The notes beneath the pieces were generated by a model. The model was not told where the DNA came from and made no database searches. It was given only the letters and a program-made list of their open reading frames with translations. Position numbers and translations under genes: made by a program. From Halorhabdus rudnickae (GTDB lineage Archaea > Halobacteriota > Halobacteria > Halobacteriales > Haloarculaceae), in assembly GCF_900880625.1 (NCBI RefSeq), contig NZ_CAAHFB010000001.1, forward strand, positions 1,364,001-1,428,000: 64,000 nt of DNA, written 5' to 3'. Within the stretch, counting starts at the first letter, position 1, and each line of letters starts with the position of its first letter. Of the stretch, positions 2 to 50,074 are shown piece by piece.

Positions 2-1039
2 GAACGCGGCGTCGACGTCCAGGTACTGCTCGAAGGTGGCCCGGTCGGGGGGATGTCCACAGCTCAGGCAGAACTGCTCGATCGGCTCGCGGCCAACGGC
101 GTCACCGTCCGGATTGTCGACGGGCCGTACGCTCGCGTCGATCACCACCACGCAAAATACGCCGTCGTCGACGATCGAGCGCTGGTACTGACGGAGAACT
201 GGAAACCCGCGGGGACGGGGGGAGCCTCCAGCCGCGGCTGGGGCGTTTTGCTCACCCAGCGGAACCTCGTCGCTGACCTCGCGGCGACGTTCCAGGCCGA
301 TTTCGGGTGGCGTGACGCCGTTTCCTGGGAGCGGTTTCGCGAGGGAGAGAAGTTCAGCGAAGGAGGGCGAACAGATGGAGAGTTCGGTCAGCACTATCGA
401 CCGGAGACCCATCGGGCGACCGGCGCGGCGTTGCTCGTCGCCCCCGATAACGCAGAATCATCCGTTATCGACCGTCTCGACGCCGCCGAGGCGTCGATCC
501 ACGTCATCCAGGTCGGCGTCGGCGGTCCCGACCAGGCCTTCGTACGGGCGCTGAAACGGGCCGCCGAGCGTGGTGTCGATGTCAGACTCCTGCTCTCGCG
601 GGCGTGGTACGCCGCGGAAGAGAACCGGGCAGTGGCCGAGGACCTCGAACGCTGGGCCGACCGCGCTGACGCATCACTCTCGGTCAGGCTGGCCCGGCCC
701 CGCGATCGCTTCGAGAAGATCCACGCGAAGGGCGTCGTCATCGACGGCGAAGAAGTGTTAGTGGGCAGCCTCAACTGGAACGACCACTCCGCACGGGAGA
801 ATCGGGAAGTCGTCGTCGCCCTGGAGGGGCGGGGGCCGGCCGGATACTACGAGCGGGTGTTCCGTGGCGACTGGCGGGCCGCAGTCTGGCGACTCTCGAT
901 CGGACTCGCCGCGACCGTCCTCGTGGCAATCGTGGTCGCGACGCTGGTCGGCCGGCGAATCGAGTTCAACGGGAGTGTCGGGGTCAGTGCCGCGAGAGAA
1001 GACGACCCCGTCGACGCGGCGATCGAGGAAGGATTTTGA
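2..1039 (+). CDS. Phospholipase D-like protein, 5' end outside the window
   Basis: The reading frame is already open at base 2, so the start lies upstream and 345 residues are visible. Two HKD-type motifs (H-x-K-x4-D) are present, one near base 149 (HHAKYAVVDD) and one near base 719 (HAKGVVIDG followed by GSLNWND). This is the two-motif arrangement of the phospholipase D superfamily, which hydrolyses phosphodiester bonds in lipids or nucleic acids. A hydrophobic segment at about bases 890-955 should be a C-terminal membrane anchor, with a short acidic tail after it. The substrate cannot be told; a surface nuclease or a phospholipase are both possible. The gene is convergent with the RecJ-like gene, 20 bases away. 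Confidence 0.8.
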   Translation, partial: ERGVDVQVLLEGGPVGGMSTAQAELLDRLAANGVTVRIVDGPYARVDHHHAKYAVVDDRALVLTENWKPAGTGGASSRGWGVLLTQRNLVADLAATFQADFGWRDAVSWERFREGEKFSEGGRTDGEFGQHYRPETHRATGAALLVAPDNAESSVIDRLDAAEASIHVIQVGVGGPDQAFVRALKRAAERGVDVRLLLSRAWYAAEENRAVAEDLERWADRADASLSVRLARPRDRFEKIHAKGVVIDGEEVLVGSLNWNDHSARENREVVVALEGRGPAGYYERVFRGDWRAAVWRLSIGLAATVLVAIVVATLVGRRIEFNGSVGVSAAREDDPVDAAIEEGF

Positions 1040-1059: not shown

Positions 1060-2976
1060 TCAGACCTCGTCGGCGAAGGCCGCCGAACTGTGCAGTTCTT
1101 CGTCGATCTCGGCGGCAGCCATCTTCCCGACGAGGGCGTCGATGACGTCTTCGCGCCGTCCTTCGACGAACTTGATAGAGCCGACGACGAGATGACCGCC
1201 GCCGCTGACGCCGCCACCGGGGATCTCCTCGCGCAACTGTTCGACCATCTCGGGGATGTCGAGTCGGACGCCGTCGCTTCGGAGGACGGCGAAGTCCGGG
1301 CCGTACCCGATCGTGATGACGGGATCGCCCGTCTCCTCGACTTTCCGATCGTGGATCGTACCCGTCGTCTTGCCCGGTGCAGGATAGGTAAAGCGTCGGG
1401 CCGCGTTCTCGACGTCGATCCGATAGAGCTGGGCGCCGTTCTCCAAGGATTCGTGTTCGACGTGATCCATCGCGGCGTCGAGTTGCTCTTCGACATCGCG
1501 CTCGGCCCGACTTGCGAGGAAGTCGACGATCTCCGCGTGGCGGTCGAGGTCCTCGCAGTCGACGTTCAGCACGTCCCTGATGAAGGGCTCGCCGGCGTCG
1601 TAGCGCAGCCAGTGGGTGGCGTAATCGAGCGCCTCGCCGACCTCTTCGAGACGCTGGCGGTCGTACCCGGCCTCGGCTGCGAGATCGAGGTACTCGGCCA
1701 TCGCGTCGGCCTCCGATCGGTCCGAGAGGCCGGCGACCGCCGGCACGTGTTCGAGGTCCTCGGTGATCGACGGATCGAGCATTCGCGCCAGTTCCACACA
1801 GAGCATCCCCGTCGTGATCCGGTAGTCCTCGCCGTGGAGATAGGGGTTGACGTGCTCGGCGACCAGATCGTCGACGGCCTCGGGATCCGGGTGGTGGTGG
1901 TCGACGACGACGATCGGGACATCGTAGTGAGCCAGGTTGCGGTAGGCCGGAGTGTCCTCTTCGGTCGAGCCGTTGTCCAGCATCAACAGGAGCGGGAGCT
2001 TCTGGCCGTGGCGTTCGCGGCTCTCCAGGGCGTGGTTGAGGTCGCGGGTGACGTCCTCCATCTCGTAGTAGGGCGCCTTCGAGGGGAGTCGTTTGAGGAG
2101 GTGTCGCGTGGCGTCGCCGCCAGCGTGGACGTCCTCGATGACGTTCTCCAGTGCGATCGACAGCGGGACGCTCGCACAGATCCCGTCGCCGTCGGCGTGG
2201 TGACGCATTCGGATCGGTCGGCCCTCGATGACTGCTTCGCGGAGGCGACGCGCGACGTCTTCGAGGTCCGAAAGCAACGGCTCAAGGGCCGGCCATTCGA
2301 CGAGCGGGTCGACATCGTGGGGCTCGGCGGCCTCACGCTTGGCGGATGCAAGGCGCTCGCGGACATCGTCGGCGGTCTCGCCCTCGAGCACTTCGAGGGA
2401 CTCGACCTCGATCTGGTAGGCGTCATCGCGTTCCTCGACGCGGCCCCGGACGGTCACCAAGTCCTCGACATCGATGTCGGGATAGGCTCTGACACCGGCC
2501 TGTTCGAAGGCGGCACAGGGAACGATTCGGGCGCCGTCGCGGACCTGAAAGATGGTCGGACCGCCAGTCTGGCGGACCTGGACGACCTCTCCCTCGAGGC
2601 TGACGGACTCGCCGACCGACGCCGCGAGGTCGTCGCCGTTGACGCTGTCGTCGAACTCGACGGCGACCGTCCGGTAGTCGTCGGGTCGGCGCTCGGCGAA
2701 CGCGAGATCGCCGTCCTCGCGGACGGTCTCGAGTTCGACGATCAGTTTATCGCCGGTCGAATACGAGGCCTGCAGGTTCGACTCGTGAACCAGTCCGGAA
2801 ACCTCCTCCGAGAGGTCGACGAAAACACCGTACTCGACGACGCCGTTGACTGTCGCGTGGTACATCGCACCCTCTTCGACATCGTCGAAGGGACAGCGCG
2901 GATCGAGGTCATAGACGACCGGACGGTCGTCGTCCGACCCCTTGGCCTCGTCTTCGGAATTAGACGAAATCGACAT
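1060..2976 (-). CDS. RecJ-like DHH-family exonuclease with N-terminal S1 domain
   Basis: A 638-residue protein. An S1-type OB fold lies at about residues 30-85 (GAMYHATVNGVVEYGVFVDL), a second OB-like segment at about 110-210, then a DHH phosphoesterase core (HHADGDGICA, MLDNGS, VVVDHHHPD) and a C-terminal DHHA1 domain ending in GGGVSGGGH. This is the layout of the haloarchaeal RecJ/GAN-like single-strand nucleases, which act in DNA repair or replication with Mg2+ or Mn2+. The frame stays open to 3372, but the upstream part crosses the promoter region of the divergent JAMM gene and is low-complexity. The ATG at 2976 (MSISSNSED) gives the acidic N-terminus usual in haloarchaea. Confidence 0.88.
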   Translation of the reverse strand: MSISSNSEDEAKGSDDDRPVVYDLDPRCPFDDVEEGAMYHATVNGVVEYGVFVDLSEEVSGLVHESNLQASYSTGDKLIVELETVREDGDLAFAERRPDDYRTVAVEFDDSVNGDDLAASVGESVSLEGEVVQVRQTGGPTIFQVRDGARIVPCAAFEQAGVRAYPDIDVEDLVTVRGRVEERDDAYQIEVESLEVLEGETADDVRERLASAKREAAEPHDVDPLVEWPALEPLLSDLEDVARRLREAVIEGRPIRMRHHADGDGICASVPLSIALENVIEDVHAGGDATRHLLKRLPSKAPYYEMEDVTRDLNHALESRERHGQKLPLLLMLDNGSTEEDTPAYRNLAHYDVPIVVVDHHHPDPEAVDDLVAEHVNPYLHGEDYRITTGMLCVELARMLDPSITEDLEHVPAVAGLSDRSEADAMAEYLDLAAEAGYDRQRLEEVGEALDYATHWLRYDAGEPFIRDVLNVDCEDLDRHAEIVDFLASRAERDVEEQLDAAMDHVEHESLENGAQLYRIDVENAARRFTYPAPGKTTGTIHDRKVEETGDPVITIGYGPDFAVLRSDGVRLDIPEMVEQLREEIPGGGVSGGGHLVVGSIKFVEGRREDVIDALVGKMAAAEIDEELHSSAAFADEV

Positions 2977-5820: not shown

Positions 5821-6005
5821 AGTGTCTCCCTGCGGGGTCGCCGATCACGCTCGGGGGACCGGCACACCCGTGGTCGTGCTCTGTCCTGGCTCCGCGGCGC
5901 TAATAGATGTACCGCTCCGATGGGCGGCCACACCTCGAACGGGTCCGTTTTTCGAGAAGCGCGATACCAGAAGGATTCTAATCCCCCGGCGCACAGCAAG
6001 CCAAT

Positions 6006-9890: not shown

Positions 9891-10313
9891 ATGCCCTCCA
9901 AGCACTCCCGGCGGGCGATCCTCCAGGGGACGGCGGCCGCCGTCCCGGCCGCGCTCGCCGGCTGTTCGGTCCTCGACTCCGAGTCGAACACCCTCTCGGT
10001 CTCCGTGGGAAACGCCGACGATCGGGAACATCTGATCGCCGTCTCGCTGCTCAGACGCGATCGCAGGGAGTTCGTGGACGCCCGGGTCAAATGGTGGCAC
10101 CACCAGCTTGCACCCGGCGAGCAAGCCGAACACGACAACGCCGTCCCCGCGCGTCGCTACATCGTTCGCGTTGCAGTCAACGGAAACTCCCTCGATCACT
10201 ACCACTACTATCCGTCCGGCTGTGCAGACGACGTCGAGAACCTCACCGTGTGGGTCGATCGACCGAGTGGCGACGACGCACTCGCGGCCGACTTTGTGCA
10301 AAGTTGGTGTTAG
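9891..10313 (+). CDS. Tat-exported lipoprotein, function unknown
   Basis: A 140-residue protein starting with a twin-arginine signal (SRRAILQGTAAA) and a lipobox (LAGC) at residues 22-25, so it should be exported folded by Tat and lipid-anchored at Cys25. The mature part looks beta-rich, with WWHHQLAPGE and YIVRVAVNG segments and two further cysteines near the C-terminus that could form a disulfide. Small proteins of this design are common in haloarchaea and have no known role. It ends about 130 bases before nuoA on the same strand. Confidence 0.72.
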   Translation: MPSKHSRRAILQGTAAAVPAALAGCSVLDSESNTLSVSVGNADDREHLIAVSLLRRDRREFVDARVKWWHHQLAPGEQAEHDNAVPARRYIVRVAVNGNSLDHYHYYPSGCADDVENLTVWVDRPSGDDALAADFVQSWC

Positions 10314-10440
10314 GTTGACCCGACAGTTCGATCCATCCAACATCCCGAAAACGGCAACATAGCCCGCTACTGCGGGCGATTCCCGCTGAAACACTGAACC
10401 CTTATGTGGGACCGCTCCCAAACCGATCCAGAGAGACCGA

Positions 10441-41364: not shown

Positions 41365-41469
41365 TTAGCTCGCGGCGATGACGTCGTCGATGCGGACGAT
41401 CATCGTCGCGGCCTCGGTGGCGGACTCGACGGCCTCGTGCTTGACCGCGGCGGGGTCGATCACGCCGTA
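41365..41469. repeat. Left attachment repeat (thermosome 3' remnant)
   Basis: 105 bases identical to 48500-48604. It contains the thermosome stop codon at its left edge (TTA, minus strand) and encodes the last 34 residues of the gene. This copy is detached from any gene body and continues leftwards into the original chromosomal flank. Confidence 0.95.
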
Positions 41470-42532: not shown

Positions 42533-42868
42533 CTATCGGTGATACCGCTCTAGAACAGGCTTCTGGCTACGTAGCGTATACTCTACAGCGAATTCCTCAT
42601 ACTTCAAGTCCCGAATTTTCTTGCCCGATTCAATGAGCTGAGAAGCAATGTCATCAATCGATTCTACATTCAGACATGCCTTTTTTGTATTCAGTTCAAC
42701 TTTATCCTTCACTTTCGTCCATTGGACTTCCTGACCACATCCAGGACAACGCTCCTCTTCAATTGTCACTTCTTTCCTTCCTTCTCCACATTCACTACAC
42801 TCTACGTGCCTTTCCACACTCACTACAATTGGCATGTCTTTCACATCCTCAAGAGCTGTTTGGGGCAT
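42533..42868 (-). CDS. Small zinc-ribbon protein of the element
   Basis: A 111-residue protein with two CxxC knuckles, CSEC (about residues 24-27) and CPGC (about 41-44), separated by 13 residues: a zinc ribbon. The rest is helical and charged. Such proteins often bind DNA, RNA or a polymerase; no specific family is recognised. Two TATA-like runs at 42873-42883 and 42891-42903 lie 10 and 29 bases before the ATG at 42868. The second has leaderless spacing, which is why I prefer this start; a further in-frame ATG at 42895 would add nine residues. Confidence 0.7.
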   Translation of the reverse strand: MPQTALEDVKDMPIVVSVERHVECSECGEGRKEVTIEEERCPGCGQEVQWTKVKDKVELNTKKACLNVESIDDIASQLIESGKKIRDLKYEEFAVEYTLRSQKPVLERYHR

Positions 42869-42922
42869 ACATTTATATATTAGTCTTTTATTCATATATA
42901 AATCTTTCCCCCCAATGATGTC

Positions 42923-43186
42923 CTATTGGCTATTACGTATAATGCGTAGTTTCATTGACCGTGACCTATGCCGATTGGAAACATCAATATCGGTGTGGAA
43001 ATCAATTGCTGCAGCCACATCTGACATGAACACGTTGCCCCCCGTGTCAAGTCCATCCTGAATCAACATCGTGGTGGCATAGACAGAATTACCCCCGACA
43101 TCTGGATGTTCATCTGCTTTCTCAACCAACTCACGTACTGCGGTTTCATCGCATAGAGTATCTCGTGAAATTGGTTCTTGATTCAT
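42923..43186 (-). CDS. Unknown 87-residue protein of the element
   Basis: Begins MNQEPISRDTLC. I recognise no family. The N-terminal half is acidic; the C-terminus is basic (SNRHRSRSMKLRIIRNS), a composition often seen in small DNA-binding or DNA-mimic partner proteins. Its ATG directly follows the TGA of the 193-residue gene with no base between, so they are one transcript and probably translationally coupled. Confidence 0.62.
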   Translation of the reverse strand: MNQEPISRDTLCDETAVRELVEKADEHPDVGGNSVYATTMLIQDGLDTGGNVFMSDVAAAIDFHTDIDVSNRHRSRSMKLRIIRNSQ

Positions 43187-43768
43187 TCACAGAAGATTAT
43201 ACGACTTTGCAGCACTACGAACGTCCGACTCGGTAACGTTCGTGTCGAGTCGGTCACTCAGGTATCTGGCAGTCTCTTTCACGCTAAGTCCGTCACTCGC
43301 AAGCAATTGAGTCAGCACACGAGGATCTTCATGAACGGGGGTCGTTAGGAGACTCAATTTCCAACTCTCGCCACTCGGGAACGTTAGCTCAGTCGGTGAA
43401 CGATCGTCCCTCCCGTCATCACCCCCCTCAGAAATCTCTATGTCGTGAATCTCACACGCTTGACGTATGGCAGATTCGTCTGTTCTAATCTCGTTCGATG
43501 CGTCTTCAAGCGAGTTGATTTGCTCACTGTTGAACAGATTAGTGAGAAAGTCGTGCGCTTCGGGTCGGAATAAGTCGCTCCTCGTTAGATAGTCTTCATA
43601 ACAGGGATCGACTTCCCCGTCGAGAGGCACCTTATCAAAGGACTCTACTGCGGGGGATCCTTCTTTGAAGCCAACACGTCGCCGCAGGTAAAGGTCATCA
43701 CTCCTATCGGGGCGATCGTCACGCTTGTCCCCCGTGCAATTTTCTACCTGTTTTGCCGAGAGGTTCAT
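43187..43768 (-). CDS. Unknown 193-residue protein with a C-terminal helix-turn-helix-like region
   Basis: No family recognised for the first 100 residues. Two helix-turn-helix-like segments are suggested: NSLEDASNEIRTDESAIRQA (about residues 89-108) and SVKETARYLSDRLDTNVTES (about 159-178), each a short helix, turn and second helix. The protein could be a regulator or replication-associated DNA-binding factor. It overlaps the upstream frameshifted gene by an ATGA unit and abuts the 87-residue gene, forming a compact operon. Confidence 0.65.
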   Translation of the reverse strand: MNLSAKQVENCTGDKRDDRPDRSDDLYLRRRVGFKEGSPAVESFDKVPLDGEVDPCYEDYLTRSDLFRPEAHDFLTNLFNSEQINSLEDASNEIRTDESAIRQACEIHDIEISEGGDDGRDDRSPTELTFPSGESWKLSLLTTPVHEDPRVLTQLLASDGLSVKETARYLSDRLDTNVTESDVRSAAKSYNLL

Positions 43769-44315: not shown

Positions 44316-45026
44316 TTAGAGGTGGGTCTGTCGTTCGCTAATGGCATTGAACGCCTTGCGAACGGATTTGAGTACCTCACCGTCCGACATACCGAGTCCG
44401 TCAAAAACGTCGTCATTGACTTCATCTAAGAGCGTCTGAGTGGCGTCAGTAACATCATCACCAACAGCATATCCACAATATCCGACTACCATGGCTTTGT
44501 GCCCCCCGTCTGGGTTCCAAGACTTCTTTTCGGATTCGGGAGCATTACTCACGTCATAAATAACGTCATCGGCAAGAGCGCCATTACCCAAAATAGCTGA
44601 CACCACTGCCTCAATTTCCTTATCGCCGTTTATTTTACTGGTTCTCATTTCCTTGCCCGTTGCCCCACGAACGTCCAACCCCATTTGGAAACGATACTTG
44701 TTTCCGTTTTTCTCCTGGCCCTTTCCTTTCTTATCATAGTCCCAACCCTTCTCTGGGTCAATTACCTCTCCCGCTTTCCAGTCTGTTCGAGCAGGAGAAC
44801 TTTGCGGCGTTCGTGCGAGCGGGGAATCACTGTCTTGCTCTTCCCATTGACGTTTACTTGAGATTGAACGACCTTGTGACGCATAGGAATCATCAATCTT
44901 CGGGTCACCACTACCGACTTCATAACAGTCGTCTACTGACTCAGACTCACCGACATCAAGGTAGTCGCTATCAACGTCCACTCCCGTGTCGGTAGGATCG
45001 TCTTGAAACTTCCAATGTTCTACCAT
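44316..45026 (-). CDS. Unknown 236-residue acidic protein of the element
   Basis: The first 90 residues are acidic and Ser-rich and look disordered; the rest (from about WKAGEVIDPEKGWDYDKK) appears folded, with a Gly-rich AVVSAILGNGALADDVIYDV stretch and a GGHKAMVVGYCGYAVGDDV segment followed by helices. I recognise no family. It starts 8 bases after the 87-residue gene stop, so the two share a transcript. Confidence 0.65.
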   Translation of the reverse strand: MVEHWKFQDDPTDTGVDVDSDYLDVGESESVDDCYEVGSGDPKIDDSYASQGRSISSKRQWEEQDSDSPLARTPQSSPARTDWKAGEVIDPEKGWDYDKKGKGQEKNGNKYRFQMGLDVRGATGKEMRTSKINGDKEIEAVVSAILGNGALADDVIYDVSNAPESEKKSWNPDGGHKAMVVGYCGYAVGDDVTDATQTLLDEVNDDVFDGLGMSDGEVLKSVRKAFNAISERQTHL

Positions 45027-45034
45027 CGTTCACC

Positions 45035-45298
45035 TCAAACAAGAACCTCAATTACGTCACCGAGAGAACGCTTATGAGGATTTAGAAAAATATCGGATTT
45101 TAATTTTTCTATGACAACACGACATTCTTCTGACACGGTGACAGTCGTGTTATTTCTGTGATTTAATACGCGCCCCCTAATGCGATTATCTCCCTGCCAC
45201 TCACCTGCGATGCGGGCAATTGCATGGCTGTACTTCGTATCAGGAAATTGACTATTCAACTCTTCAAGCGTCGCTCGTGAAATTCGTACAGTCTGCAT
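45035..45298 (-). CDS. Unknown 87-residue protein of the element
   Basis: Begins MQTVRISRATLEELN, which looks like the opening strand and helix of a ribbon-helix-helix DNA-binding protein, although the rest does not fit the family clearly. A purine-rich GAGGAG lies 15-20 bases before the ATG. One 28-nt repeat lies inside the gene and another immediately upstream, so it may regulate its own transcript through these sites; this is inference. Confidence 0.6.
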   Translation of the reverse strand: MQTVRISRATLEELNSQFPDTKYSHAIARIAGEWQGDNRIRGRVLNHRNNTTVTVSEECRVVIEKLKSDIFLNPHKRSLGDVIEVLV

Positions 45299-45358
45299 AA
45301 ATTTAATACGCTCCTCTTACTGCGATTATAATTTAATACGTGTTCCGTACAGCGATTA
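45161..45358. repeat. Three 28-nt interspersed repeats
   Basis: Copies at 45161-45188, 45301-45328 and 45331-45358 share ATTTAATACG, ten variable bases, one base, then GCGATTA. A weaker copy lies near 45543-45565. The last two are in tandem 2 bases apart, between the 50- and 87-residue genes; the first is within the 87-residue gene. Read on the minus strand each ends in TATTAAAT, which resembles a TATA box, so they could be promoters, operators or iteron-like origin sites. Confidence 0.7.
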
Positions 45359-45508
45359 GAGATTATTCTCTCTGTAGAAGTCGATCAATTCAACAAGCAT
45401 GGTATTGTGGCTCACTTCCGTTTCTGAGCCATATACCGCCCGTTCAAGTTCGTTCAACTCATTCAACTGTGCTTCCAAAACTCGAATACGAGATTCGTTC
45501 GATGACAT
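45356..45508 (-). CDS. Small 50-residue coiled-coil protein of the element
   Basis: An ATG at 45508 opens a 50-residue frame (MSSNESRIRVLEAQLNELNE) with leucine spacing typical of a short coiled coil. A strong Shine-Dalgarno (AGGAGGT, minus strand) lies about 10 bases upstream, unusual in this mostly leaderless genome and good support for translation. Function unknown; a small dimerising regulator is possible. The stop lies inside the third 28-nt repeat. Confidence 0.62.
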   Translation of the reverse strand: MSSNESRIRVLEAQLNELNELERAVYGSETEVSHNTMLVELIDFYRENNL

Positions 45509-45696: not shown

Positions 45697-45843
45697 CCTC
45701 TCTTCTTTCGGCAATCACGTCACCCCATCGCTCCGCATTCGATTCAAACAGCAAATCGAATGCGGACCGAGGGGCGACGTTCAGACAGCATGGGAAAGAA
45801 GAAGAGGTGTGTGAACTGGCTGCGGCATAGATCACTTTGACCC
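45697..45843 (-). other. Hairpin unit A, homologous to unit B
   Basis: A structured unit: outer arms at 45697-45709 and 45794-45807, inner perfect 13-bp arms at 45732-45744 and 45754-45766 around a 9-base loop, with a further pairing region (ACGTC-CCCC with GGGG-GACGT) that is complete if G-U pairs on the minus strand are allowed. The flank to 45843 also aligns with unit B. Overlapping frames give no recognisable protein. Could be a structured RNA or part of a replication origin. Confidence 0.6.
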
Positions 45844-46020
45844 GCAGAGAATTGTTTGTGTTAGACATCCTCGTATCATGGATATTTGAGTGAAGAATTA
45901 TCCCTCACTCGGTGGAGTAAGAAGAGACGTGCCTGTCACCAACGTTCAAAACAAATCGTCTCTCACCCGTCTCACGACTCTTTGAACGGGGGAGAGACGT
46001 TCCTTGCAGACGTTTGTGAT

Positions 46021-46173
46021 GGGGGCAAGGTGATTTTTGTCGTTGTCAAATATACACTCTCCTCTCTATCCCAACTGCTGTCGGGGAGCGAAATTGCTCG
46101 CGTGAGCATTTTGATTTGCGGTTTGAATCAAAATGCGAACCGAGTGATGAGCGACCCGCGGGATAGAGGAGAG
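46021..46173 (+). other. Hairpin unit B, homologous to unit A in opposite orientation
   Basis: Outer arms at 46057-46072 and 46160-46173, inner perfect 11-bp arms at 46106-46116 and 46126-46136. The 9-base loop differs from that of unit A (reverse complement) in one base. The inner stems differ by paired changes that keep pairing. A GACAGCA segment is also shared. The 45844-46020 spacer between the units has no supported gene. Confidence 0.6.
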
Positions 46174-46469
46174 TTCTGTGTATAAGTACAATTGTATCAC
46201 CGAAATATTCGTTGATAGAATATTTCAAAAAATAATTCTTCTCTGTTTAGAGATAACTGTAGCGATTCTAAGAGTTTTTCATCGTTCCCATGCTCACCAC
46301 GCATGTGTCAAACAAACCGACTGTGGCGACTGTCAGGCGGGTTAGAATGGAAATGAGGGTGTCGCAATACACGTCTGCAGGGGAGAATCAGAGTAAGCTT
46401 GCTTCGGGAATATGCCTTCTCTCTCGATAGGTATGAGACAGATATACATCAATATATTTAATGTATCTA

Positions 46470-47210
46470 TCACCTACCAATATATTGGTATGACACGAAA
46501 AGTATGATCCCTCCCCCGACAGTCCAAAAGAAAAAGAATTGGACAAATTCTGGACTGGCATCCTGTGGATAGATGTTTATAATAGCGTGCGAAAATAATA
46601 AAATAATTCCCAACAGGAGAATTGAAGGAAGGACAAGAACCACAAACAGCTTAATGATGTTTGTATTCTGGATATCACTAACATTCTCCAAAGATTCAAT
46701 TTCTTCTCCCGTGTCCGTTACTTCCCGATCGCTCTGTGAATTCAGGTGGTTAGATGGTACAGACGGAGCGTCTGATAGCAGATTATAGTTCGATAAGATA
46801 TCTTCATTGTCGTTCTGGACAATCATTTGAGCAAGCGATTGTCCATCCACTGTTTTGACATCTAAATCACGGGCCAGTCTCTTCGCCTGTGTACTAAAAT
46901 CCCCCGTGGTAACGATCACGACCGTATCAACGTCACTCACCTGTTGATACAGGGTAGCGTATTTCCTCACTTCTTCGCTACCAATTGTATTCGAGTCAGC
47001 ATACCGTTTGACCTGGATCAGGACTTTCTGTTGAAACGGTTGTTCTTTAATCGCTTCCACGTCAATGCCCCGATCCCCACTCTTTTGGCGAACAGTCGTA
47101 TCATAGCCTTCTGCTTCCCATACGTCGGCTACCAACTTCTCAAAGTCGTATGGATCAATCTGTTGGAGCCGATGTTGAATCTCCCGAGCGGATAGTTCTG
47201 TCGCAGTCAC
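46470..47210 (-). CDS. Mrr-type restriction nuclease with two C-terminal membrane helices
   Basis: A 246-residue protein. Residues 15-135 form an Mrr-like (PD-(D/E)xK) nuclease domain: FEKLVADVWEAEGYD, the metal Asp in GDRGIDVEA (about residue 50) and the QVKRY motif (about 66-70). After a 45-residue linker come two membrane helices at about 186-207 and 222-243. Mrr domains cut modified or foreign DNA; the anchor would place the nuclease at the membrane. On a mobile element it may act in defence against other elements. It starts with GTG at 47210, and about 150 bases separate it from the integrase stop. Confidence 0.82.
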   Translation of the reverse strand: MTATELSAREIQHRLQQIDPYDFEKLVADVWEAEGYDTTVRQKSGDRGIDVEAIKEQPFQQKVLIQVKRYADSNTIGSEEVRKYATLYQQVSDVDTVVIVTTGDFSTQAKRLARDLDVKTVDGQSLAQMIVQNDNEDILSNYNLLSDAPSVPSNHLNSQSDREVTDTGEEIESLENVSDIQNTNIIKLFVVLVLPSILLLGIILLFSHAIINIYPQDASPEFVQFFFFWTVGGGIILFVSYQYIGR

Positions 47211-47362: not shown

Positions 47363-48379
47363 CTACTCAAAGAATTGCCGTCGAGATTCAGTTTTCTCAG
47401 ACTCGGAACGAACGTCATAGTGTTTATCAAGAATATCTTTACTCACGTTTGCCCTGTCGGATATCGCTCTAACGGGAATGTCCTTTGTCAGTAGATACGA
47501 AATTGCCCCCCGTCGAACATCGTGTGGTGATTGGGTCGATGGACATTGAGAGGCGAGTGAAACGATCTGCTTTGCATCACAGTCGTCGGGGTCACGGTCA
47601 TGTGGACAGACATCACCCCGTTGGCAAGGACGTGTCCATCGGTACACGGCTCGTCGTAACGTCGATATCCCAGCACGCCCGTGTTTCGTCGTCAATAGTG
47701 GGTCACGCCCGTGTTCATCAGTTGTCTTCACACGGGCGTGTTCAATGTAATCGTCAAGTGTCTCTGTTGTTCGGTCGTCAAGTGCTAACAACCGTTCACC
47801 CCGTTTGCCGTTTTTCAACGATGTCCCTGTTTCGGGGCGATGGCGGACAGCAAGAGTCTCTGCGTCTGGGTCAAAGTCGTCCACGTCGAAGGATCGTACT
47901 GTCCCAACGCGGATCGCCGTGACCCACAGCAATCGGAGAAGTGTGTGATCCCGCGAGGCGTACTGGAATTTTCGAAGGTGTTCGAGTATGGTGTCAGCTA
48001 CGTCAGTCTCAAGGCGAGTCTCACGAGTTTGTTTCTCCACCTGTGGCAAGACTATTCGCTCTGCAAGGCCAACTGAGGCGGCTTCAATCGACTCTGCAAA
48101 GCGAATATATTGTCGTAGAACGCCGAGTTGTGACCGAAGAGTATTCCCGTTCACTTCTTCTCGCCGTTCTTTGCGAAAGTCGTGGATGTCACGCCCATCC
48201 AAATCTGCCGTCGCTGTTACATTATTGTCATCACACCACACAAGGAACCGTTCAAGAACGTATCTGTGGGAGCGACGTGTACGGTCGGCTAAGTCCGTTT
48301 CCCTCTCAGAAAGGTATAGTTCCAGAACGGAGTGTGGGTCGATTCGATCCAAGTCCGTTTTCGGGTGTGTCGTTTCCAT
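47363..48379 (-). CDS. Tyrosine recombinase (integrase) of the element
   Basis: A 338-residue recombinase. Residues 15-110 look like a SAM-like core-binding domain (VLELYLSERETDLADRTRRS, then TLRSQLGVLRQYIRFAE). The catalytic domain shows the first Arg in WVTAIRVGTVRS, the H-x-x-R box in SPHDVRRGAISYLL and the Tyr in KHYDVRSE. It should recombine the 105-bp thermosome att sites. A cysteine/histidine-rich insert (CQRGDVCPHDRDPDDC) sits in the catalytic domain, as seen in some haloarchaeal integrases. The ATG at 48379 fits best; frames open to 48418. Confidence 0.9.
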   Translation of the reverse strand: METTHPKTDLDRIDPHSVLELYLSERETDLADRTRRSHRYVLERFLVWCDDNNVTATADLDGRDIHDFRKERREEVNGNTLRSQLGVLRQYIRFAESIEAASVGLAERIVLPQVEKQTRETRLETDVADTILEHLRKFQYASRDHTLLRLLWVTAIRVGTVRSFDVDDFDPDAETLAVRHRPETGTSLKNGKRGERLLALDDRTTETLDDYIEHARVKTTDEHGRDPLLTTKHGRAGISTLRRAVYRWTRPCQRGDVCPHDRDPDDCDAKQIVSLASQCPSTQSPHDVRRGAISYLLTKDIPVRAISDRANVSKDILDKHYDVRSESEKTESRRQFFE

Positions 48380-48449
48380 TATTGTCACCGCCATACGGCG
48401 GCGACCCGCAGTCATCAACGACTGAATCCCATCACGGGTATCGGACCGA

Positions 48450-48499: not shown

Positions 48500-48604
48500 T
48501 TAGCTCGCGGCGATGACGTCGTCGATGCGGACGATCATCGTCGCGGCCTCGGTGGCGGACTCGACGGCCTCGTGCTTGACCGCGGCGGGGTCGATCACGC
48601 CGTA
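48500..48604. repeat. Right attachment repeat, inside the intact thermosome gene
   Basis: Identical to the left repeat. Because it is fused to the thermosome gene body it restores the full 3' end, so insertion did not destroy the gene. Identity stops exactly at base 48604 versus 41469, where the following bases differ. Confidence 0.95.
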
Positions 48605-50074
48605 CTCGAGGGGATCGGCGATGACGCCGGTCTGGCCCTCACTGATGACGCCTGAGAGGTCGTCGTCCTCGTAGGCCGACCGGAGGTCGACCAGAGCGTC
48701 GATCGGGTCCATGCCCGTGTTCGTCGCAAGCGTCCGCGGGACCACATCGACGGCGTCGGCGAAGGCTTCGACAGCGAGCTGCTTGCGGCCCTCGATGGTG
48801 GCGGCGTGGGAACGGACGTAGTCGGCGACGGCAATCTCGGTGGCGGCCGCGCCGGGAACGACGCCGCCGCGTTCGAGGGCGGCAGTCACGACGTCCAGGG
48901 CGTCCATGATGGCGCGTTCGAGTTCGTTGACGACGTGTTCAGTGCCGCCGCGGGCGAAGATCGTTACTGCCTCGGCAGCCGCGCCGCCCTCGACGAAGGT
49001 GAGATCCTCCTCGCCGTAGGCACGGACGCTGACCGAGTCCGCTTCACCGAGTTCGTCAGCTTCGAGATCCTGAACGGAGGTGACCCGGCTCGCGCCGGTC
49101 GCACCGGCGATGGCCTCGAGGTCGTCAACGCCGTCCAGAGCCAGCACGTCCTCTTTCGCGAGGTAGGCGGCGACGCGGTCCTCGACATCGCCGGAGACGA
49201 AGACCACGTCGACACCGAGATCTGCGAGCCGTTCGGCGTACCCGCGAAGTTCCTCCTCCTCGGCCTCGATGGCAGCGTTGAGCTGGTCGACGTTGTTGAC
49301 GTTGTACTCGGCGTCGATGTTGCTCTCCTTGAGGTCGACATCGCCGTCGACGACGGCAATATCGGCGTCCTCAGCCGTCCGGGGCATGTTGTCGTGGACG
49401 GGCTCCTCGTCGACGATGACGCCCTCGACGAGTTCGGTCGCGCTCGAGGAAGAACCGACCTGCGTGTGGATCGTGATGTTCTCGCGCTCGACGCGCCCGT
49501 CACGGACGTGACGGATCGCCTCGACGACTGTCTCGGCCAGGGGCTCTGCAGCGACGTCGCCGGTCCCCTTGCCGGTCATGCTCGACTCGGCGACTTCGAC
49601 CAGTGACTCGTCGTCCAGGTCCCCGTCAACGACGAGGTCGTCGATGGCCTCGCGGGCGAGGCGCGCGGCCTCGTGATACCCCTCGACGATCGTCGTCGCG
49701 TGGACATCGTCCTCGAGGAGATCTTCGGCCTTCGCGAGCAGTTCGCCCGTGAGGATCGAAGCGGTGGTCGTCCCGTCGCCGACCTCTTCCTCCTGAGTCT
49801 CGGCGACTTCGACGATCATGTTCGCCGCGGGATGCTCGATGTCCATCTCGTCTAAGATGGTGGCGCCGTCGTTCGTGATCACGACGTCGCCGTCGTCGGA
49901 GACGAGCATCTTGTCCATCCCGCGGGGCCCGAGCGTCGTTCGTACCGCCTCGCTGACTGCTTTCCCCGCCGAGATGTTCGAACTCTGTGCATCTTTCCCC
50001 TGTGTCCGCTGGGAGTCCTCGCTGAGAATAAACATCGGCTGACCGCCCATGCGCTGCTGTCCAGACTGTGACAT
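48500..50074 (-). CDS. Thermosome (group II chaperonin) subunit
   Basis: A 524-residue chaperonin. [29 protein letters not shown] and [16 protein letters not shown] are the ATP-binding blocks; the apical domain follows around residues 205-365 and the C-terminal equatorial part ends [20 protein letters not shown]. Subunits form a double-ring ATP-driven folding chamber. It lacks the Gly-Gly-Met tail of the main haloarchaeal subunits, like CCT3-type paralogues. The last 105 bases are the integration site of the adjacent element, which preserved the frame and the stop. Confidence 0.94.

Follow-up and report, generated by a model that had tools for sequence, protein, structure and literature searches.

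Two long hairpins, here called units A and B, lie in opposite orientations within an integrated mobile element, and hairpins resembling unit B are found at the same place in related elements of four other haloarchaeal genomes (L020, L021, L022 and L044). These relatives keep the fold while the letters change, indicating that the fold itself is under selection. The window analyzed here is a 64,000-nucleotide part of a haloarchaeal chromosome, that of Halorhabdus rudnickae (G000:C1:1364001-1428000). We tentatively favor the proposal that the units are cis-acting stem-loop sites lying where replication of a small, plasmid-like integrative element is controlled; structured RNAs are nearly as likely.

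Two inverted hairpins in a 7.1-kb integrated element

The hairpin of unit A occupies positions 45697-45808 and folds on the minus strand (-69 kcal/mol, z -8.2), and that of unit B occupies 46056-46174 and folds on the plus strand (-63.8 kcal/mol, z -7.9; model-matched core at 46084-46156). These hairpins are 112-119 nt long, and for each of them 0 of 200 dinucleotide shuffles folded as well. Each is preceded on its folded strand by a 5´ flank common to both units, at 45809-45843 (minus) for A, where the flank is itself a small hairpin, and at 46021-46055 (plus) for B. The original prediction, which placed A at 45697-45843 (minus) and B at 46021-46173 (plus), had the coordinates and strands right. 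The homology that it described for the loop, the arms, a GACAGCA segment (equivalent to TGCTGTC) and the flank is also real. Specifically, the units align colinearly over about 155 nt in the order GGGTCAAAGTGAT / GGGGCAAGGTGAT, pyrimidine arm, TGCTGTC, apical hairpin and purine arm, with a local alignment score of 82 versus a best score of 38 among 2000 dinucleotide shuffles. The 5´ part without the apical hairpin is significant alone (score 43, best shuffle 32), and the 9-nt loops (TGCTGTTTG at 45745-45753, minus, in A; TGCGGTTTG at 46117-46125, plus, in B) are identical at eight of nine positions. Across the whole 3.36-Mb genome, GATTTGCNGTTTGAATC occurs with zero or one mismatch only at the A and B places. 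Pairing-preserving changes in the stems had likewise been claimed. Among the 22 base pairs common to the alignment, 16 are unchanged, two are changed on one side and four on both, so the claim is true and the effect within this pair is modest; the strong covariation comes from the relatives.

The enclosing element, which the original prediction did not include, measures 7.1 kb and is bounded by exact 105-bp direct repeats in a thermosome gene. The left att repeat (41365-41469) is an exact copy of the right one (48500-48604), which forms the 3´ end of the thermosome gene at 48500-50074. In a congener (L063), the left flank, an att copy that is 97% identical, and the right flank all fall within about 1.8 kb, and the element sequence is absent; two further loci (L064 and L065) are similar in appearance. 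Between the repeats lie a tyrosine integrase gene (47363-48418, minus; Pfam Phage_integrase 4.9e-08, PHROG integrase 7.5e-29), cargo in the form of an Mrr-type endonuclease gene (46470-47210, minus; Pfam Mrr_cat 8.5e-26) and several small minus-strand genes. Thus, the direct repeats, the genes between them and the empty sites of the congeners together place the hairpins in an integrated mobile element. Units A and B themselves occupy a non-coding stretch of roughly 1 kb, with the Mrr gene on one side and the first small genes on the other.

The small genes, all on the minus strand, encode an 87-amino-acid protein whose alignment shows that it is kept in relatives (45035-45298), a 236-amino-acid protein that is conserved in the element family and has no known domain (44316-45026), a 193-amino-acid protein that is the best conserved of the family (43187-43768), a second conserved protein of 87 amino acids (42923-43186), and a 120-amino-acid protein with zinc-ribbon-like cysteines and weak Pfam matches (42533-42895). 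The first of these possibly binds DNA, given a distant VapB-type antitoxin match in Pfam for two of four members (best E 0.013). Iteron-like direct repeats are present at 45161-45189, 45301-45329 and 45331-45359 (consensus approximately TAATCGCNNTAN6CGTGTAGTMA, or CGTATTAA in the window), and related repeats are found beside the same genes in relatives. Searches of Pfam and PHROGs recognized no replication protein, primase or HUH nuclease among the element proteins, and PDB profile searches gave no significant match. AlphaFold models of two element proteins from single sequences were poor (pLDDT 40 and 49). A distant Rep may be hidden in the 193- or 236-amino-acid protein.

Two further observations concern the gene content. 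A 50-amino-acid open reading frame at 45356-45508 (minus) resembles, by eye, one at 7874-8029 of L020 (RIRVL...LNELERAVYGSETEVSHNTML), and it likely encodes a small, conserved element protein that binds DNA. The slot between the integrase gene and the hairpins holds different cargo in each element, here the Mrr nuclease and in the G236 element a HEPN-like protein plus a membrane protein (L020:5483-6826), which suggests that it is a site for defense cargo.

Conservation of the fold in related elements

Syntenic relatives were found through the 236- and 193-amino-acid proteins in other haloarchaea, namely G236 (L020), G004 (L021), G003 (L022) and G274 (L044), with more distant ones in G130 and G379. 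All of these surfaced only in whole-genome protein searches. BLASTN against plasmids and 59 relatives returned the query itself and chance-level short matches only, and protein searches of viral contigs, genome contigs, plasmids and phages returned no relatives.

In L020, L021 and L022, a B-related hairpin is located in a non-coding region of about 1 kb ahead of the small-gene operon. The L044 element, of another family, carries two inverted copies at 437-502 (minus) and 2248-2313 (plus) that are 96% complementary over a 56-nt core and 89% complementary over a further 62 nt of 3´ flank. Taken at greater length (355-504 and 2248-2392), these copies are near-identical inverted units of about 150 nt in which the outermost stem alone differs, on both sides. 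The two outermost stems, TTGCC/GGCAA versus GGAC/GTCC, are almost wholly different, each pairing with itself, which is the same pattern that the original prediction saw in the window. A second copy is therefore present in two of the five elements with a B-type hairpin (the window and L044), and the other three have one copy. Orientation relative to the operon also differs: B runs against it, the units of L020-L022 run with it, and the two L044 copies point one each way.

Because MAFFT could not align the units across elements, the sequences were padded with N and placed by hand to give the training alignment. When five units are aligned with the structure as a guide, 92.6% of cells are paired and 22 of 26 pairs show two-sided changes; sliding the partner by one column lowers pairing to 36-44%. 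When the L020 unit is added and the set realigned, 91.6% of cells are paired, two-sided changes again affect 22 of 26 pairs, and 0 of 500 shuffles are as good. A hand-set alignment of this kind leans towards structure, and unbiased checks are provided by model R1 and by the left-out L020 unit.

Model R1 was trained on the G274 copies only, and within the window's element it ranks A first (15.1 bits, 45716-45780) and B third (12.7 bits, 46102-46140). Model R2, trained without L020 and with B in the training set, recovers the left-out L020 unit with a score of 34.1 bits (E 2e-6 for 265 kb searched). This is the covariance-model search of haloarchaeal elements that the original prediction proposed as a check, and together with the covariation it bears out the claim of a conserved structure. 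The pattern named beforehand as counter-evidence was protein sequence kept in homologues with the pairing lost, and the relatives show the opposite. R2 scores its training member B at 57.4 bits and, searching the window's element, does not find A. Across seven whole genomes, where a limited number of candidates was scored, R2 finds only element-borne units and misses the known L020 unit; in the RNA-model search of 392 genomes, 13 candidates per genome were scored and known members were missed, so that negatives mean little. One R2 match at 20 bits (L050) lacks most of the apical part and was treated as chance. Above its cut-off, Rfam identifies only tRNAs in the window, and no family fits the hairpins; the A and B hairpins, and likewise the relatives, give weak miRNA-type matches far under the gathering cut-off.

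Neither the tandem GA motifs nor the membership of the pair in an element-wide family had been anticipated. The common core runs in the order outer stem, GA/GA, a helix of 8-13 nt per side, GA/GA, apical stem and loop. In the fold of B (plus strand), the inner tandem GA/GA is a 2x2 loop formed by GA at 46104-46105 opposite GA at 46137-46138, and it is kept in all six R2 hits. The outer GA/GA (46090-46091 opposite 46149-46150) is kept in relatives except for G236, which has GG/GA. A further GA/GA step lies two pairs outward in B (46086-46087 opposite 46153-46154), and L020 and L021 have it as well (GGGAGC/GCGACC and variants). The opposed GA dinucleotides belong to one strand and form symmetrical 2x2 loops with the flanks pyrimidine-GA-purine, the setting in which sheared tandem G.A pairs occur in RNA and DNA alike. 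In a double-stranded palindrome GA would face TC, whereas here GA faces GA, so that one strand folds on itself.

The GA form comprises six units in five elements, and A is a diverged paralogue in which the loop, TGCTGTC and one opposed outer GA/GA are retained and the inner step is GU/AG. A 9-nt loop of the UUGCNG type is common to A, B and both L044 copies and is not shared by L020-L022. By eye, five of the six B-type units have a GTACAA box after the hairpin, and the one in G236 has GTACGT.

Other structured sequences accompany these units. A second conserved block, u2 (ATTCTAAGRGCCGTGAAT...AATCGATTTsGTTC...ATCGAGTG, enclosed by a TTCTAAG/CTTAGAA stem), is present at L020:7297-7390 (plus), at L021:7040-7165 (minus), on the operon-antisense strand of L022 at about 10100-10230, and in part at 46257-46350 (plus) of the window; its orientation in L020 is opposite to that in L021 and L022. 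The G379 element has its own repeated hairpins (L043:6430-6565, minus; 10300-10430, minus; 5850-5950) with AGTGACCT...AGGTCACT stems, then a TTCTAAG-containing hairpin. More strong hairpins are found between the 236- and 92-amino-acid genes at L021:8960-9160 and at about 8160-8290 of L022. Finally, a 4.5-kb contig (G278:C5; L047:1-4491) carries relatives of the 92- and 193-amino-acid genes and about 1.15 kb of non-coding sequence, and no replication gene was recognized on it; this contig is possibly a plasmid.

Function of the folded strand

Seven units were compared with their complements, and in each case the stated strand is more stable. A fold specific to one strand acts as RNA or as single-stranded DNA, and because the preference is seen under RNA and DNA parameters alike, it does not choose between these molecules. 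The original prediction had listed a small RNA, an origin with opposed sites and a recombination site as possibilities; the conserved structure beneath all three stands, the data do not separate RNA from single-stranded DNA, and the hairpins are unlikely to be a site for the element's own integrase, since its att sites, the 105-bp repeats, lie at least 2.3 kb away.

It is quite conceivable that the units encode structured non-coding RNAs of about 120-200 nt, transcribed divergently from between the units, with the G.A-step stem bound by protein. Acting in trans, such RNAs would for instance exert copy control, interfere with a virus in the manner of a satellite, or function as defense or antitoxin RNAs. 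RNA is favored by G.A steps conserved on one strand only, by tolerated G.U pairs where A.C mismatches are rare, by fold z values of about -8, and by the GTACAA box after the hairpin in most relatives. DNA is favored because the orientation relative to genes varies, no promoter-like AT-rich box was seen by eye ahead of the units, iteron-like repeats adjoin, and pRN1 offers a precedent. Variable orientation and position relative to genes are expected of a cis-acting DNA site and not of a leader RNA, and the lack of a fitting Rfam family also counts against the RNA explanation.

The remaining explanations are considerably less probable. It seems improbable that the hairpins are folded sites at which an integrase-like enzyme recombines or resolves DNA, or that they signal packaging of a virus satellite: two elements have inverted copies and block u2 is flipped in L020 relative to L021 and L022, as inversion would give, but the hairpins are internal whereas the integrase att repeats lie at the element borders, a second recombinase is absent from the window's element, and neither a helper virus nor a capsid gene is known here. 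Stable hairpins between genes would also be expected of intrinsic terminators or chance palindromes. However, there is no T run after these hairpins, the covariation extends over five elements, A and B are homologous over the whole unit, and the conserved internal GA loops exclude chance, making this account very hard to sustain. Least credible of all is a pair of remnant paralogous protein genes, which the original prediction raised on account of the short matching peptides KVIY and KVIF. BLASTP yields no alignment at E <= 100, the reading frames have no family matches in Pfam or PHROGs, indels between relatives are out of frame, and the changes track base pairing; the peptide similarity is a mere translation of the DNA similarity, and we reject this rival.

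In the replication stem-loop proposal, the integrase would excise the element, after which one DNA strand of each unit might become single-stranded or extruded. The exposed strand would form a long hairpin containing at least two tandem G.A steps at helical spacing, and an initiator or primase complex would read the fold and its motifs rather than the letters of the stems, thereby initiating or priming replication. A small element protein may bind the neighboring iteron-like repeats, and two inverted copies could serve the two strands, like paired single-strand initiation sites. This proposal is supported by the non-coding location in an integrated element, beside iteron-like repeats that recur in relatives, and by same-place hairpins in relatives with a conserved fold and a hold-out match in L020. 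It is weakened because no replication protein, primase or HUH nuclease was recognized in the element, because tandem G.A pairs and the tolerance of G.U pairs are no less typical of RNA, and because a second copy is present in only two of the five elements.

The start of replication in small archaeal plasmids and integrative elements is mostly unknown, and this family combines a strongly conserved fold with no recognizable Rep. We consider it possible, if doubtful, that the hairpins represent a new class of fold-conserved nucleic-acid element, whose members would be long hairpins, often in inverted pairs, that carry tandem sheared G.A steps at helical spacing and a loop of the UUGCNG type. If so, the class would act in small haloarchaeal integrative elements lacking any recognizable gene for a replication protein, and the fold with its unnamed small proteins would constitute a new system for replication initiation or RNA control. 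The motifs are precise enough for mutation and the covariance model is usable for searches; the proposal is directly testable either way. If the units act as DNA, they would offer a tractable origin with paired strand-specific sites; if as RNA, a new RNA family of archaeal mobile elements.

Comparison with known stem-loop sites

The ssiA and ssiB sites of plasmid RSF1010 are inverted relative to each other. Like the units described here, they are a pair of related hairpins near iterons (PMC4234260), and opposed homologous hairpins near repeats are found in the window and in L044, not in L020-L022. However, the RSF1010 sites are shorter and are read by the RepB' primase (PMC4234260), and searches of Pfam and PHROGs found no RepB'-like primase here.

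The sso sites of rolling-circle plasmids and of ICEBs1 are also orientation-specific sites of folded single-stranded DNA, in the latter case in an integrative element, and their fold matters (PMC4595007). Unlike the hairpins here, sso1 of ICEBs1 consists of three stem-loops with sequence similarity to known plasmid sso, and it serves conjugative single-stranded DNA (PMC4595007), whereas there is no sign of conjugation here.

Among haloarchaea, SNJ2 has a hairpin origin (PMC13107129). This SNJ2/Rep-Arvir origin of betapleolipoviruses resembles the present case in pairing a haloarchaeal integrative element with a non-coding hairpin (PMC13107129). The SNJ2 hairpin is short (22 nt), conserved in sequence and located directly behind the rep gene, which encodes a Rep-Arvir protein with a MarR-like wHTH, with an upstream inverted repeat (PMC13107129), whereas the hairpins here are far longer and conserved in fold. 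No Rep was recognized in Pfam or PHROGs, sets without a Rep-Arvir profile.

The pRN1 family of crenarchaeal plasmids has a putative origin in which replication requires a stem-loop of about 100 nt that works when displaced (PMC4234260). This stem-loop is the least conserved stretch by sequence, yet its fold is conserved (PMC4234260). The hairpins described here are similarly stem-loops of about 100 nt with low sequence identity and a conserved fold, borne by a small archaeal plasmid or integrated plasmid. In pRN1 a prim-pol/helicase protein is encoded directly upstream (PMC4234260), and none was recognized among the element proteins here. Unlike pRN1, the present family conserves tandem GA loops, sometimes has the hairpin in two inverted copies, and has iteron-like repeats close by.
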